From: Enorma phocaeensis
GTDB taxonomy: Bacteria; Actinomycetota; Coriobacteriia; Coriobacteriales; Coriobacteriaceae
Direction of reading: 5' to 3'
DNA length: 64,000 nt
Assembly (NCBI RefSeq): GCF_016901575.1
Contig: NZ_JACJKQ010000001.1
Location: forward strand, 124,001-188,000
Below the pieces are notes generated by a model. The model was given only the letters and a program-made list of their open reading frames with translations. It searched no databases and was not told where the DNA came from. A program made the position numbers and the translations under genes. Every line of letters starts with the position of its first letter. Position 1 is the stretch's first letter. Shown here in pieces: positions 57,708 through 63,961 of this stretch.

Positions 57708-58967
57708 GTGGCTAACGCTTCCCATCGTTCCAATCAGCCTGCTCGCAGCGGTGCGCGTCGCACCCAGACCCAGCCAACTGCTCGTCCGGCGGGAACTCGC
57801 TTCAAGCAATCCTCCACGTCTCGAGGGAGCGCCCGACGTTTCGCTACGCATGCCTCCCGGGCATCTCGAACGCGGCCGGCTCCTCGGCCCGTGGCGAGCG
57901 CCTACCAGGTTCCCCAGCGTAAGAAGAGCTCCCCGGTCCCCGTCGTCATCGCCCTCGTCGTTGCCGTCCTTGCTGTTGCGGTCGTGATGGGCGTCGTGCT
58001 GCCGGCGGTGACGCCCCTGTTTGTCGGCTCTTCCGAGCCTGCGGTCGCGGCGGGCCAAGAAGTCCAGGTAAACATCCCCGAAGGTGCCTCCGGCGACCAG
58101 ATCGCCTCTACGCTATCCACCAATCATGTCATTGAGGACCCCCAGGATTACTATGCGGCAGTTCGTCAGCTCAACGCCGATGCGCTGCTTAAGCCTGGCG
58201 ACTATCTGTTTACCACCGGCCAAGATCCGCTCGAGGTCGTCCAGCAGCTCATCGACGGTCCCAACGTCGAGGGCGTGAGCCTCACCATCCAAGAGGGGCT
58301 GACGGTTCAGCAGACCGCTGCCCGCGTGGAGGAGGTTTACGGCATTCCGGCCGACGAGTTCCTCCAGCAGGCAAAGGCGTCAAACTATGTTGACGACTAC
58401 CCCTTCCTAGAGGGCGCCTATGACGATTCCCTCGAGGGCTATCTCTATCCCAAGACGTACAGCTTCTCCGGAACCCCTACCGCGGACGACATCATTCGGG
58501 CGCTCCTCGATCAGTTTGAGATCGAGACCGCAGACATCGACCTTGCCTCGGGCGCCAACGGCCTCACTTCTCAGCAGCTCATCTCGCTTGCGTCGCTCGT
58601 GGAGCGCGAGACGGCAGTCGAGGACGAGCGTCCCATGGTCGCGAGCGTCATCTACAACCGTCTCGATGAGGACATGCCGCTTCAGATCGATGCCGCCATC
58701 GTGTATGCCCGCGGAGGCGGTTCGCAGTCCGTCACATACGATGACCTCGAGATCGACTCGCCGTACAACGTCTATCAAAACACCGGCCTCACGCCTGGAC
58801 CAATCTGTTCTCCGAGTATCTCGTCGATTCAGGCCGCCGTGAACCCCGCTGACACCTCGTACCTGTATTATGTACTGTCTAGTGCCAACGACGGCACGCA
58901 TAAGTTCAGCGAGACCTACGACGAGTTCCTCACGAATCGTCAGGAGTATTTGGATTCACGTTCATGA
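57708..58967 (+). CDS. mltG: Endolytic murein transglycosylase MltG
   Basis: Cuts nascent glycan strands of peptidoglycan outside the membrane. 419 residues: a basic, low-complexity cytosolic N-terminus (1-75), one membrane segment (about 77-101), a LysM-like domain, and the YceG catalytic domain with SLVERETAVEDERPMVASVI (catalytic Glu near 299) and TGLTPGPICSPSISSIQAAV. GTG start with GGAGGGG upstream. Overlaps the next gene by four bases. Confidence 0.92.
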   Translation: MANASHRSNQPARSGARRTQTQPTARPAGTRFKQSSTSRGSARRFATHASRASRTRPAPRPVASAYQVPQRKKSSPVPVVIALVVAVLAVAVVMGVVLPAVTPLFVGSSEPAVAAGQEVQVNIPEGASGDQIASTLSTNHVIEDPQDYYAAVRQLNADALLKPGDYLFTTGQDPLEVVQQLIDGPNVEGVSLTIQEGLTVQQTAARVEEVYGIPADEFLQQAKASNYVDDYPFLEGAYDDSLEGYLYPKTYSFSGTPTADDIIRALLDQFEIETADIDLASGANGLTSQQLISLASLVERETAVEDERPMVASVIYNRLDEDMPLQIDAAIVYARGGGSQSVTYDDLEIDSPYNVYQNTGLTPGPICSPSISSIQAAVNPADTSYLYYVLSSANDGTHKFSETYDEFLTNRQEYLDSRS

Positions 58968-59461
58968 GCATCTTTTCTCCCGGGCGGTATGTCGCCTCGG
59001 TCGACCGGATAGATTTAGACGATCTGTGGGCGCAGGGCAAGCGTGCCATTCTCTTGGATCGCGACAACACCTTGGTACCACGTGATCGCGCAACGGCCCC
59101 GGCGGAGGTAGCCTCTTGGCTCGACCGTGCCCGAGAGAAAGGCTTCAGCCTTTACATGGTTTCCAACAACTGGCATCGCGACCAGGTTGAGCGTTCGGCG
59201 AGCGAACTGGGGCTTGGGTCCATCTGCTTTGCATTAAAGCCCCTCCCATTCGCGCTCGCGCGCGCCCTTCGGCATCTAGACGTTCCGCGTGATGCGGCCG
59301 TCATGGTGGGCGACCAGCTCTATACCGATGTCTGGGCAGGCAACTTTGCTGGAATCGATTCGATCCTGGTAAAGCCGCAGACCACGGTCGATTTGTGGTA
59401 CACGCAGATCTTCCGCATCTTTGAGCGTCGGGCGCTCAAGGGCGTTCCCTGCGAGGAGTAG
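58964..59461 (+). CDS. YqeG-family HAD phosphatase
   Basis: A 165-residue HAD-IIIA phosphatase. The catalytic aspartates are in ILLDRDNTLVPR (Asp32 and Asp34), the Thr/Ser motif in MVSNNWHRD, and the last acidic motif in MVGDQLYTDVWAGN. YqeG-like proteins often accompany aroE/aroK and yqeH; the substrate is uncertain. The ATG overlaps the mltG stop. Confidence 0.87.
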   Translation: MSIFSPGRYVASVDRIDLDDLWAQGKRAILLDRDNTLVPRDRATAPAEVASWLDRAREKGFSLYMVSNNWHRDQVERSASELGLGSICFALKPLPFALARALRHLDVPRDAAVMVGDQLYTDVWAGNFAGIDSILVKPQTTVDLWYTQIFRIFERRALKGVPCEE

Positions 59462-59464
59462 CCG

Positions 59465-59998
59465 ATGCCTGAGAGCGTCAAGCGCGGCTGCGACCATGTC
59501 TTCTTCATCGGTTTTCTCGGTGCGGGGAAGTCGACCCTCGCCCGGAACCTCGGCTCCCTGTTCAATCGCCGCTTCGTCGACACCGATCGGCTTGTCGAGC
59601 GGCGCGCGGGCATGTCGGTCGGCGCCATGTATCGCACCCGCGGCGAGGCGTACTTTCGCAAGCTCGAGACCCAGGCCCTTCGTTCCCTGCGAAGCGAGCG
59701 GAGCCTGCTGGTCTCATGCGGCGGCGGTGTCGTCGAGACGCCCGAGAACATTCGGCTCATGCGTGAGATGGGGTTCTGCGTCTATCTAGACGGGGACCTG
59801 GATGACTCTCTCCGGCAGATTCGGTCCTATGCGGCACGACCGGATTTTCGTTCGCCAAAACATGCCGCGAGCCTGCTCGAACATCGCAGGCCGCTCTATC
59901 AGGCTGCCGCAGACCTCACGATCGACATCCGCGGTCGTTCGTTCAAGGAGGTCTCCTATCAGTGCGCGGAGCTGCTATTGGAGCGTGGTCTGCTGTGA
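59465..59998 (+). CDS. aroK: Shikimate kinase
   Basis: Phosphorylates shikimate on the path to chorismate and aromatic amino acids. 177 residues with Walker A GFLGAGKST (about 16-24), the shikimate-binding DTDRLVERRAGMSV and CGGGVVETPENI, and the adenine lid near RPDFRSPKHA. It starts four bases after the HAD gene. Its stop overlaps the aroB-like gene (GTGA). Length is normal. Confidence 0.9.
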   Translation: MPESVKRGCDHVFFIGFLGAGKSTLARNLGSLFNRRFVDTDRLVERRAGMSVGAMYRTRGEAYFRKLETQALRSLRSERSLLVSCGGGVVETPENIRLMREMGFCVYLDGDLDDSLRQIRSYAARPDFRSPKHAASLLEHRRPLYQAAADLTIDIRGRSFKEVSYQCAELLLERGLL

Positions 59999-61113
59999 CG
60001 GTACGGCGTCAGCTGCTTAACTTCTCGTCGAGAAGCGTCGATGTGCGTATGGGCCCTCGTGCCTTGGATGAGCTGTCTCGCATGGTGCGCGGTACCGTCG
60101 GCCTTCCCAAGCGCGCGGCGCTTGTTGCGGCGGGTTCGCTTGGGGCAGAGCTTGAAACCGAGATCCGGCACGAGCTTGTCGATGCGGGCTTTACGGTGAC
60201 GAGAATCGTCTTGCCTGATGGCGATGAGCTGCAATCCATGGGTGCGGTCACGTCGGTACTTGAAGACCTGGGACATATGGGCGCCACGCGTGACGACGTG
60301 CTGGTGTGCGCTGGCGGTGCGGTCGCCTGCTCGGTGGGTTCTCTGGCTGCGAAGCTCTGGTGCGGCGGCATGTCTTGCGCGCTCATTCCCACCACGTTTG
60401 ATGCCATGATCACCGTCGCGACGTCTATGGAGCCCCTGTCTGCCGGCGGCGTGTCAGGCGTGGCCTGGATGACGCCCGAGCCGTCGCTTGTCGTATGCGA
60501 CATCGATTTTGTTACGGAGTCGTCGCTCTCGGAGAGGGCTTGCGGCTACGTCTACCTCATGGGCTCGCTTCTCGCCGACAGCCGTCGTTCGTGGGATCGG
60601 ATGGGGGAGCTCGTGCCTCGGCTTGTCGAAGGCGATTCCCGTGCCTATGTGGATGCCCTGGCTGCCGCCCAGCTCGCTCGACGGGCGGTCGTCACCGCTG
60701 CAAACCCTTCCGCCCGCAATGCCCTTCAGTATGGCCTCACCTGCGCGCGGGCGCTTCGCGCATGCTTGGGCGGGGGCGTGCCCTGGCATGTCTTGCTTGC
60801 CGAAGGCATGCGTTTCGAAGCCCGCCTCGCCGTCGAGGCGGCGAAGTTCGACGTCGACGCCGTCTTCGAGCAGGACGACCGCTTCGACGACCTCGGAATC
60901 GAGGAGCTTCCCTTCAAGCTCGATGTGGACCGCTTCATCGATGCGCTGAAGGGGGCTAATGCTCGCTATTCAAACCGTCTCTTATTCGCGCTGCCAAAGA
61001 ATCCGGGCATCATCCGCCTGACGGCCGTCACCGACGATGTGCTTGTCCGCCATGCCTCGGCATATGTCGCCTCGCGCGCGGAGCTTCTTGAAGGGGACGA
61101 AGCGGTCGAATAG
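59995..61113 (+). CDS. AroB-like protein lacking the dehydroquinate synthase active site
   Basis: A 372-residue homologue of 3-dehydroquinate synthase, in the expected place after aroK. Homology is clear (IVLPDGDELQSM, IPTTFDAMI, GMRFEARL). But the catalytic positions differ: the NAD loop GGGVVGD is GGAVACS (about 107-113); the SSVGGK lysine loop cannot be aligned; the metal ligand Glu in AEVIK is Tyr185; both histidines of GHTFGHA are Leu248 and Arg252; and the HGEAV histidine aligns with Trp264 (a His lies one residue later). The frame is intact. It is probably a pseudoenzyme or a protein with a new job. GTG start at 59995. Confidence 0.75.
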   Translation: MTVRRQLLNFSSRSVDVRMGPRALDELSRMVRGTVGLPKRAALVAAGSLGAELETEIRHELVDAGFTVTRIVLPDGDELQSMGAVTSVLEDLGHMGATRDDVLVCAGGAVACSVGSLAAKLWCGGMSCALIPTTFDAMITVATSMEPLSAGGVSGVAWMTPEPSLVVCDIDFVTESSLSERACGYVYLMGSLLADSRRSWDRMGELVPRLVEGDSRAYVDALAAAQLARRAVVTAANPSARNALQYGLTCARALRACLGGGVPWHVLLAEGMRFEARLAVEAAKFDVDAVFEQDDRFDDLGIEELPFKLDVDRFIDALKGANARYSNRLLFALPKNPGIIRLTAVTDDVLVRHASAYVASRAELLEGDEAVE

Positions 61114-61210: not shown

Positions 61211-62341
61211 ATGGCAGCATCAATTTCCGGCCCCGTCGGCCGCATCGCCCGCGTCCGCGCCATGATGGAGGAGCGCGGCTACGATGCCGTCGTCGTTCGT
61301 GACGAGGCGAATCTGCGCTGGCTCACGGGTGCCGAAGGGGTCTTCGACTTCACCGGCGAGCTCCCGCATGCCGCGTTCATCACGCTCGATGATACCTATT
61401 TGCACACCGACTCCCGATACTTCAACACCTTCGAAGAACATCTGCCCGAGGGTTCCACCTGGAAGCTCGACATGCGGGTCATCGATATCTTCCGCTGGGT
61501 CGCTGAGCGCGCTCGCGACTCACGTTGCCACGTCGTCGCCATCGAGGACACCACCGAGCTTTCTTTCTATACGGGCCTCGTGCGTTCGCTCGAAGACGTA
61601 TCCATCGTCTGCAGCTTGCCCCAGCTGCACGGCGACCTTCGTCGCATGCGTGCCGTGAAGGACGCCGAGGAGGTCGAGCTCATGAAGAAGGCGCAGGCCA
61701 TTACCGATGCGGCTTTCCAGCACATGCTCGGCTTCATTCGCCCGGGCCTCACTGAGAAGCAGCTCCGCATCGAGCTTGAGAACTTCATGTACGAGCACGG
61801 CGCCGACGGCCTCGCCTTCGGATCGATTGTCGCAGCCGGCCCCAACGCGGCGAACCCGCATGCCATCCCGAGCGATCGGGTGGTTGAGAAGGGCGAGTTC
61901 GTCCTGATGGATTATGGCGCGCGCTATCGCGACTACAACTCGGATATGACCCGCACCGTTAGCGTGGGCGAGCCGTCTTCCAAGATGCGCGAAATCTACG
62001 ACATCGTTCGTCATACCCATGAGGAATGCGCCAAGGCCGTCTATGCCGGCATCGACGGCAACGAGATCCACGAGCTGTCTCGCAAGCTTATCGGCGAGGC
62101 GGGTTACGGCGCCTACTATGGACATGGCCTTGGCCACGGCGTGGGCATCGACATTCACGAGCTGCCCAACTTCGGTCGTGCTCACAACACGGTTGCCGAG
62201 GGCTCCGTGGTAACCATCGAGCCTGGCATCTATCTGCCTGGCGAGTTTGGCGTTCGCCTGGAGGACTACGGCATCGTGACAGACAAGGGATTCGAGCCCT
62301 TCACCCAGAGCCCGCACGAGCTTCAGATTATCGATTGCTAA
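61211..62341 (+). CDS. Xaa-Pro aminopeptidase (M24 family)
   Basis: A 376-residue creatinase-fold metallopeptidase that removes N-terminal residues before proline. The C-terminal pita-bread domain has the metal ligands in VLMDYGARYRDYNSDMTRTV, GHGLGHGVGIDIHELP and TIEPGIYLPGEFGVRLED. The N-terminal domain (1-130) matches short PepP/PepQ-like enzymes. AAGAGGGG lies upstream. It precedes efp, as in many Gram-positive genomes. Whether it cuts dipeptides or longer peptides is not clear. Confidence 0.92.
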   Translation: MAASISGPVGRIARVRAMMEERGYDAVVVRDEANLRWLTGAEGVFDFTGELPHAAFITLDDTYLHTDSRYFNTFEEHLPEGSTWKLDMRVIDIFRWVAERARDSRCHVVAIEDTTELSFYTGLVRSLEDVSIVCSLPQLHGDLRRMRAVKDAEEVELMKKAQAITDAAFQHMLGFIRPGLTEKQLRIELENFMYEHGADGLAFGSIVAAGPNAANPHAIPSDRVVEKGEFVLMDYGARYRDYNSDMTRTVSVGEPSSKMREIYDIVRHTHEECAKAVYAGIDGNEIHELSRKLIGEAGYGAYYGHGLGHGVGIDIHELPNFGRAHNTVAEGSVVTIEPGIYLPGEFGVRLEDYGIVTDKGFEPFTQSPHELQIIDC

Positions 62342-62458: not shown

Positions 62459-62518
62459 GAGAGTATACTTTTGTAGATTGCATTCATGCGCCCAAGGCGC
62501 GAGATAAGAAAGGTAACC

Positions 62519-63085
62519 ATGGCTAGCATTACCACCGCTGACTTCAAGAATGGCATCGGCCTGCGCATCAAGGACAAGGTGTGCACCATCGTCGAGTTCC
62601 AGCACGTCAAGCCTGGCAAGGGCGGCGCCTTCGTGCGTTATAAGACCAAGGACCTCAAGACGGGCCGCGTGGTTGAGCAGACCTGCAACGCTGGCACCAA
62701 GTTTGAGAGCGTCACCCTTACGACCACCGAGATGCAGTATCTCTACAACGACGGGGATCACTACTACTTCATGAACATGGAGACCTATGACCAGGTTCCC
62801 GTCCCCGTTGACTTCATTGGCGACAACGCCAAGTGGCTCAAGGAGAACGACGTCTGCCAGCTGCTCTATGCAGACGACGAGCTCATGGGCGTCAATCCGC
62901 CGATGTTCATCGAGGTCGAGATCGTCCAGACCGACCCCGGCTTCAAGGGCGACACCGTTCAGGGCTCTACCAAGCCTGCGACCATTGAGACCGGCGCCGT
63001 CATCCAGGTGCCCATGTATCTCAACGAGGGCGAGAAGGTCAAGGTCGACACGCGTGACGGCAAGTTCGTTTCTCGCGTCTCCTAG
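62519..63085 (+). CDS. efp: Elongation factor P
   Basis: Relieves ribosome stalling at polyproline. 188 residues in three domains. The domain I loop HVKPGKGGAFVRYK carries the conserved lysine (Lys34 here) at the tip; ending ...TRDGKFVSRVS is the family C-terminus. ATG 62519 with AAAGG upstream, chosen over an upstream in-frame ATG at 62486. The EpmA/EpmB lysylation genes are not nearby, nor a recognisable modification enzyme. Confidence 0.96.
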   Translation: MASITTADFKNGIGLRIKDKVCTIVEFQHVKPGKGGAFVRYKTKDLKTGRVVEQTCNAGTKFESVTLTTTEMQYLYNDGDHYYFMNMETYDQVPVPVDFIGDNAKWLKENDVCQLLYADDELMGVNPPMFIEVEIVQTDPGFKGDTVQGSTKPATIETGAVIQVPMYLNEGEKVKVDTRDGKFVSRVS

Positions 63086-63118
63086 TATCCGCATACGTTC
63101 GAGGGAATGAGGGAGCTC

Positions 63119-63478
63119 ATGTCTCAGGAGATCTTCATTGACGGTATTGGCATCTCTCCCGATGTTCTGACTGCCGTTGTATCCCGCTTCGCCGAAGAGG
63201 TGGAGGGCGTCGCGTCGGTGGGCGTGAAGGACCTCGCCACCAACCTCGTCTCCATGCTTTCCACGCGCGCTCCTTCCGCGGCGCCCGCACTGGAGGCCCG
63301 AGTCGAGGGCAACAAGCTCGTCTTGACCGTGCACGCCGTGGTCTTCTTCGGCTATCCGTTCAAGAAGCTTGCCGAGGCCATTCGCGAGGCGGTTCTGCGC
63401 GGCATTGATGCCCAGGTCGGCGTCGAGGTCGAGCGCATCGACGTCTGCATCGATGGTCTTGTATTTCCCAAGGAGTAG
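63119..63478 (+). CDS. Second Asp23/Gls24 family protein
   Basis: A 119-residue Asp23/Gls24 paralogue, the second in the window. It shows IFIDGIGISPDVLTAVVSRF and VHAVVFFGYPFKKLAEAIRE. The efp-asp23-nusB order is the same as efp-yqhY-nusB in Bacillus, so this is the YqhY type, linked to acetyl-CoA carboxylase or envelope homeostasis. ATG 63119 with GGGAG upstream; an ATG at 63107 is also possible. Confidence 0.88.
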   Translation: MSQEIFIDGIGISPDVLTAVVSRFAEEVEGVASVGVKDLATNLVSMLSTRAPSAAPALEARVEGNKLVLTVHAVVFFGYPFKKLAEAIREAVLRGIDAQVGVEVERIDVCIDGLVFPKE

Positions 63479-63481
63479 CGC

Positions 63482-63961
63482 GTGAGCTTGAAAGTCGACC
63501 GCGGCCGCACGTTGGCCCGCAGCCAGGCCCTGCAGCTCCTGTTCCAGGCTGAGGCGCTCGGCGTCTCGGTTGAGACGGTCCTTGCCGGGGACTACCTCAT
63601 CTCAAAGGGTCCGCTTCACCCGTATGCCGCCGAGCTTGCCCGTGGCTGCAGCGAGAACATGCTTCGCATCGATGCTGCGCTGCGTGCGGTTTCTCAGAAC
63701 TGGGCGCTTTCTCGCATGCCGGGAGCCGACCGCAACTTGCTGCGTCTTGCCGTGTATGAGATGCGTTTCGCACCTGAGAAGGTCGAGGACGCCGTTGTGA
63801 TCAACGAGGCGGTTGAGATCGCTAAAGCGTATGGCACGGATGACTCTGCGGCATTTGTGAATGGCGTTCTTGGACGCATCGCACGCTCGCAGAATCTTCC
63901 GCTTTCCGCGGCAGGCCCCAACGAGGCGTCCGGCTCCTCGTCCTCGAAAGAGGATGAGTAG
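63482..63961 (+). CDS. nusB: Transcription antitermination factor NusB
   Basis: Binds boxA RNA with NusE to allow rRNA operon transcription. 159 residues, all-helical, with ARSQALQLLFQAEALGVSVE at the start, then LSRMPGADRNLLRLAVYEMR and INEAVEIAKAYGTDDSAAFV near the end. GTG start three bases after the Asp23-type stop. It ends in a short Ser-rich tail. The next gene starts two bases later. Confidence 0.95.
   Translation: MSLKVDRGRTLARSQALQLLFQAEALGVSVETVLAGDYLISKGPLHPYAAELARGCSENMLRIDAALRAVSQNWALSRMPGADRNLLRLAVYEMRFAPEKVEDAVVINEAVEIAKAYGTDDSAAFVNGVLGRIARSQNLPLSAAGPNEASGSSSSKEDE

Follow-up and report, generated by a model that had tools for sequence, protein, structure and literature searches.

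AroBL, an AroB homologue without the catalytic residues, is a conserved putative pseudoenzyme of Coriobacteriaceae and Atopobiaceae

Introduction

Pseudoenzymes as such are well known, and the candidate described here, AroBL, has 3-dehydroquinate synthase (AroB, DHQS) as its closest described relative. The zinc ligands of Aspergillus DHQS are E194, H271 and H287, and its K250/R264 pair grips the substrate carboxylate; by the same residue roles, the AroB histidine that matches Arg252 of AroBL is a phosphate ligand. The sugar phosphate cyclases 2-deoxy-scyllo-inosose synthase and 2-epi-5-epi-valiolone synthase use NAD and metal. In the literature searched, whose coverage leaves most subscription journals outside, we find neither an AroB pseudoenzyme nor the pair formed by AroBL and its neighbouring kinase, AroKL, described.

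AroBL is encoded in a 64,000-nucleotide stretch of an Enorma phocaeensis contig (the window). The features of the locus, all on the + strand, are as follows.

57708..58967, +, mltG (YceG family), conserved neighbour (Pfam PF02618, 270 bits; synteny)
58964..59461, +, yqeG HAD phosphatase, conserved neighbour (TIGR01668, 107 bits, above cut-off; synteny)
59465..59998, +, AroKL, shikimate-kinase homologue, 177 aa (Pfam SKI, 126 bits; alignment; PDB shikimate kinase matches)
59980..59983, +, GGAG, Shine-Dalgarno-like site for AroBL within the 3' end of AroKL (sequence)
59995..61113, +, AroBL, AroB homologue without catalytic residues, 372 aa, GTG start
61211..62341, +, pepP/pepQ-type M24 peptidase, conserved, directly downstream of AroBL (Pfam M24; synteny)
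62486..63085, +, efp, elongation factor P, conserved neighbour (TIGR00038; synteny)
63107..63478, +, Asp23-family gene, conserved neighbour (Pfam PF03780; synteny)
63482..63961, +, nusB, conserved neighbour (Pfam PF01029; synteny)

Results

The AroBL frame is intact and overlaps that of AroKL

We find that the 372 codons of AroBL run without interruption at 59995-61113 (+), as the initial annotation had read them. The GTG start overlaps the AroKL stop in the sequence GTGA at 59995-59998 (+), and the same start position is used in Coriobacteriaceae relatives as ATG, GTG or TTG; a longer alternative from the GTG at 59962 is unsupported by relatives. An NTGA overlap is present in every Coriobacteriaceae locus examined, and the Shine-Dalgarno-like site is conserved among them, consistent with translational coupling of AroKL and AroBL at all of these loci. 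Several Atopobiaceae loci lack the overlap and have gaps of 90-171 nt, and canonical native loci (e.g., L045 and L047) already have an AroK-AroB overlap, which is ancestral. A scan for promoters and terminators of the operon reveals no signal above chance. A role in defence was also considered and rejected, with no PADLOC match.

AroBL retains the AroB fold and has lost its binding sites

AroBL scores 60.6 bits (E 1e-16) against the NCBIfam AroB model TIGR01357, with residues 21-346 aligned and a cut-off of 305, compared to 340.8 for the canonical AroB of the same genome and 356.8 for a native-locus canonical AroB from another family of the order. The protein thus lies below the equivalog cut-off for AroB and is recognized as a homologue by its fold and full-length alignment, as first proposed. 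An AlphaFold2 model built from 50 sequences has a mean pLDDT of 95.9 and a pTM of 0.93, and its top Foldseek matches are 3-dehydroquinate synthases (3okf/6lla; TM 0.84-0.86). The orthologue from G065, a genome with neither AroKL nor the shikimate pathway, is modelled at a pLDDT of 95.8.

The binding sites were compared by aligning AroBL with E. coli AroB and 18 coriobacterial AroB sequences (E. coli numbering for AroB). The NAD loop GGGVVGD becomes GGAVACS in AroBL, as originally noted; this loop is variable across the AroBL family, with the last D replaced by S in 39/41 members. The zinc ligands E184, H247 and H264 are replaced by Y187, L248 and W264, and the triad is intact in no AroBL member tabulated. 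The reported loss of the zinc site therefore stands for all three ligands, with two corrections: the glutamate aligns with Tyr187 rather than Tyr185, and Arg252, which does replace a histidine, matches the AroB phosphate ligand and not a zinc ligand. None of the six phosphate ligands (R120, K142, N152, N244, H251, K324) is retained in the window AroBL, with R120 changed to G, N244 to Q, H251 to R (Arg252) and K324 to A. D136 is replaced by T and K187 by G, and the lysine loop is altered as described, with K142, K151 and N152 all lost. Misalignment masking complete sites was rejected, as no placement in this alignment restores them.

The catalytic set is lost in all 41 AroBL sequences compared, and is complete in 17/18 coriobacterial AroB as far as the sequences reach. 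The exception to the claim that every catalytic position had been replaced is the carboxylate-binding pair K226/R240, which persists as R229/R241, counting K to R as charge kept. R229 is found in 36/36 Coriobacteriaceae and 23/27 Atopobiaceae AroBL, and R241 in 35/36 and 27/27, respectively.

This pair raises the idea that AroBL is a ligand sensor, which would bind a carboxylate such as an aromatic or shikimate-like acid through the two arginines and control a partner. The persistence across both families of the equivalents of Aspergillus K250/R264 agrees with such a role, but R241 may be structural, and two divergent copies, L051 and L138, lack R229, the former lacking R241 as well. We regard a sensor as improbable.

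AroBL is near-universal in two families and under purifying selection

AroBL is present in 37/37 Coriobacteriaceae genomes, a set that spans Collinsella, Enorma and Candidatus Limicola and includes the genome studied here; the other copies are 43-68% identical to the window protein, and the nearest named match is from Collinsella sp. An2 (69%). It is also found in 90/91 Atopobiaceae genomes (partial in G067, split in G083 and divergent in G091) and in G043, the sole genome examined from another family. The one Atopobiaceae genome without it, G104, has a run of N directly upstream of pepP, and this assembly gap accounts for the absence. The gene order mltG-yqeG-(prepilin peptidase)-(AroKL)-AroBL-pepP-efp-asp23-nusB is kept, with parentheses marking genes that are not present at every locus; several Atopobiaceae have the prepilin-peptidase-like gene (PF01478; e.g., L129:4729-5199) after yqeG and before AroBL.

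A few loci are rearranged. AroBL and PepP form a single 734-aa frame at L015:1501-3702 (G028) and are separate genes in the close relative L008; this frame is either a real fusion or an assembly error. AroBL is split at L154 (G083) and at L121 (Collinsella vaginalis), with mltG-yqeG between the pieces or duplicated. L121 was set aside as an exception, as it is a scaffold whose frames contain unread bases, and its split is therefore probably a misassembly.

The median dN/dS over 176 matched genome pairs is 0.108 for AroBL, the same for MltG, 0.041 for AroKL and 0.033 for PepP. Were AroBL no more than a decaying remnant of the former aroB, the loss of its catalytic residues and its faster change relative to AroKL and PepP would be in keeping, but the frame is open across two families, the gene context is fixed, selection is purifying and the predicted fold is confident. 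Conservation over family-level divergence led us to reject decay, which is barely credible, in line with the initial preference for a pseudoenzyme. With the catalytic residues gone in all orthologues and both frame and predicted fold under selection, AroBL is, as judged from sequence, an AroB-derived pseudoenzyme, and one probably devoid of any catalysis.

Residues that are invariant or nearly so in both families include R5, D101, G107, W122, R229, R241, R273, R277, D294, R328, P334 and H353, and the near-invariant arginines among them (R229, R241, R273, R277, R328) could make up a novel site for binding or catalysis. Another reading is accordingly that AroBL is a new enzyme, with a cleft rebuilt for some reaction that uses neither zinc nor NAD, possibly on the product of AroKL. 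Six nearly invariant residues (S113, W122, R229, N327, R328, R341) are typical of AroBL and absent from canonical AroB, both carboxylate-arm positions are held as arginine, the adjoining kinase could provide a phosphorylated substrate, and the AroKL-AroBL pair persists in genomes without the shikimate pathway. On the other side, many of the conserved C-terminal-domain residues (EGMRF-ARLA, D294, H353) are common to canonical native AroB and therefore seem to be structural, variation is free at several former cleft positions, and AroBL remains where AroKL has been lost. A new enzyme is in our judgement unlikely.

The shikimate pathway is encoded elsewhere, or is missing where AroBL is kept

In the genome studied here (2.36 Mb, 99.8% complete), an intact aroB lies at 197 kb on the contig, 9 kb beyond the window end, and this excludes AroBL as a stand-in for a missing AroB. 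It belongs to an aro cluster on the other strand (L033) with aroB, aroA, aroC and an aroE-aroK fusion; aroF, tyrA and pheA were read from translations only. Given this separate cluster, AroKL and AroBL of the window are not needed for chorismate. In the fusion (L033:3977-5332), shikimate dehydrogenase and shikimate kinase are joined within a canonical aro cluster, and similarly long frames surround the second kinase domain in most relatives.

Four genomes, G004, G043, G065 and G091, yield no chorismate synthase, shikimate dehydrogenase or canonical AroB, and no EPSP synthase either, with matches of at most 23-26% identity, as expected of MurA. G004 is one closed contig of 2,115,681 bases; completeness is 94% for G043 and G091 and 86% for G065, making gene absences less sure there than in G004, but the absences agree in that four separate genes are all missing. 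G092 was dropped from this group, as canonical AroB is present. AroBL is kept in all four genomes lacking aroA, aroB, aroC and aroE, which places its role outside the shikimate pathway and shows that AroBL is independent of it. AroKL is retained in G004 and G043, and is thus not restricted to shikimate-pathway genomes.

These genomes bear on whether AroBL still serves the pathway, as an activator or scaffold of AroK or of the second AroB. The intact shikimate-kinase residues of the adjoining kinase and the nearby aro cluster speak for such a role; the four pathway-free genomes largely refute it, and the pathway owns an AroE-AroK fusion. We consider it very improbable.

AroKL keeps a complete kinase site but is probably not the only partner

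In an alignment of 50 AroKL sequences with canonical AroK, AroKL retains the P-loop (GFLGAGKST) and the DTD, FRKLE, CGGG, RP and RRPLY motifs. It thus has the P-loop and shikimate-site residues of a shikimate kinase, and the adjoining aroK reported earlier is indeed intact, with a complete kinase site. Against NF010553, AroKL scores 108 bits, with a cut-off of 204.

AroKL is found in 76/91 Atopobiaceae genomes. Three of the 15 without it are uninformative (G067, 57% complete; G104, assembly gap; G133, contig end), leaving 12 genomes from six genera with AroBL and no AroKL; at 11 of these 12 loci, which were inspected, AroKL is absent and its site closed up or occupied by the prepilin peptidase. 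AroBL is therefore not solely a kinase partner. Retention of conserved AroBL residues is about equal without AroKL (0.62) and with it (0.65), which argues against AroKL as the only partner. AroBL is still constrained in these genomes, with dN/dS of 0.17-0.20 in the closer pairs of one AroKL-less genus. An attempt to map a putative AroKL interface from R18, R341 and L342, residues under relaxed constraint in genomes that have lost AroKL, gives a weak signal, mostly from one genus. The suggestion that AroBL partners a shikimate kinase thus fits the translational coupling read from Coriobacteriaceae loci, but fails in part, as the pathway has its AroE-AroK fusion, G004 and G043 keep the pair without the pathway, and 12 genomes have AroBL alone.

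AroBL and AroKL derive from the native AroB and AroK

A tree of 49 AroB and AroBL sequences places AroBL in one clade (100/99) among the native-locus AroB of other families of the order and apart from the aro-cluster AroB; a union of AroBL with the latter is rejected (p-AU 0.005). The AroKL sequences, too, fall into a single clade (100/100), which sits among native-locus AroK. These trees show that AroBL and AroKL descend from native coriobacterial AroB and AroK. The simplest history is that the native genes were replaced in their old task and then took on another role, in what we infer to be that order.

A further native-locus AroB, at L043:4008-5093 (G041), lies by mltG-yqeG-pepP without aroK, in a genome that also has a canonical AroB (L044). 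It retains the NAD loop and a single zinc ligand; the other two are lost (E184A, H247Q), with R240G and N244A in addition. A single clade of this protein with AroBL is not rejected (p-AU 0.47). It appears partly dead, and represents either an intermediate stage or another such case.

Discussion

On balance, we lean towards AroBL as a pseudoenzyme conserved throughout Coriobacteriaceae and Atopobiaceae, where it belongs to the core proteins and acts outside the shikimate pathway in a structural or regulatory capacity. A second, complete aro cluster would have taken over chorismate synthesis and released the native AroB from its old job; the residues for zinc, NAD and phosphate binding were lost, and the predicted AroB fold stayed. 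AroBL, presumably dimeric as AroB is, would act non-catalytically, binding a partner and either positioning or regulating it. The likely partner in most lineages would be the coupled kinase AroKL, whose substrate is probably other than shikimate; survival of AroBL without AroKL in several genera points to one or more additional partners or roles. It is also probable that AroKL and AroBL make up a new core module of the two families, built from retired shikimate genes; in this module the kinase would work together with, or alongside, a dead AroB whose new cellular function has nothing to do with aromatic amino acids.

AroBL would thus be a case in which gene replacement released an old housekeeping enzyme to evolve into a pseudoenzyme, and, as a near-universal, constrained protein of two families with a clear origin, it is a good target for study. 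Because public models still link AroBL and AroKL with 3-dehydroquinate synthase and shikimate kinase, pathway reconstructions for common gut bacteria (Collinsella, Enorma, Atopobiaceae) may include the two as shikimate genes; for G004, for example, such a count would wrongly point to parts of a missing pathway.

Among known systems, AroBL most resembles 3-dehydroquinate synthase (TIGR01357, PF01761/PF24621), with which it shares fold, length, domain order, a position beside aroK and descent, and from which it differs in lacking the NAD loop, zinc ligands and phosphate-binding residues and in being retained without the shikimate pathway. The sugar phosphate cyclases belong to the same fold superfamily (Foldseek 2gru, 4p53), but their model TIGR04425 gives AroBL only 27 bits, with a cut-off of 400, and AroBL has neither NAD nor metal site. 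AroK-AroB fusions (NF010627, NF010556) have the same two domains in the same order and adjacency, whereas AroKL and AroBL are two separate genes and the AroB half appears dead. AroKL, finally, carries all kinase and shikimate-site motifs of the shikimate kinase AroK, but has the lid motif RPDF/RPDL where AroK has mostly RPLL, and occurs in two genomes that are free of the pathway.
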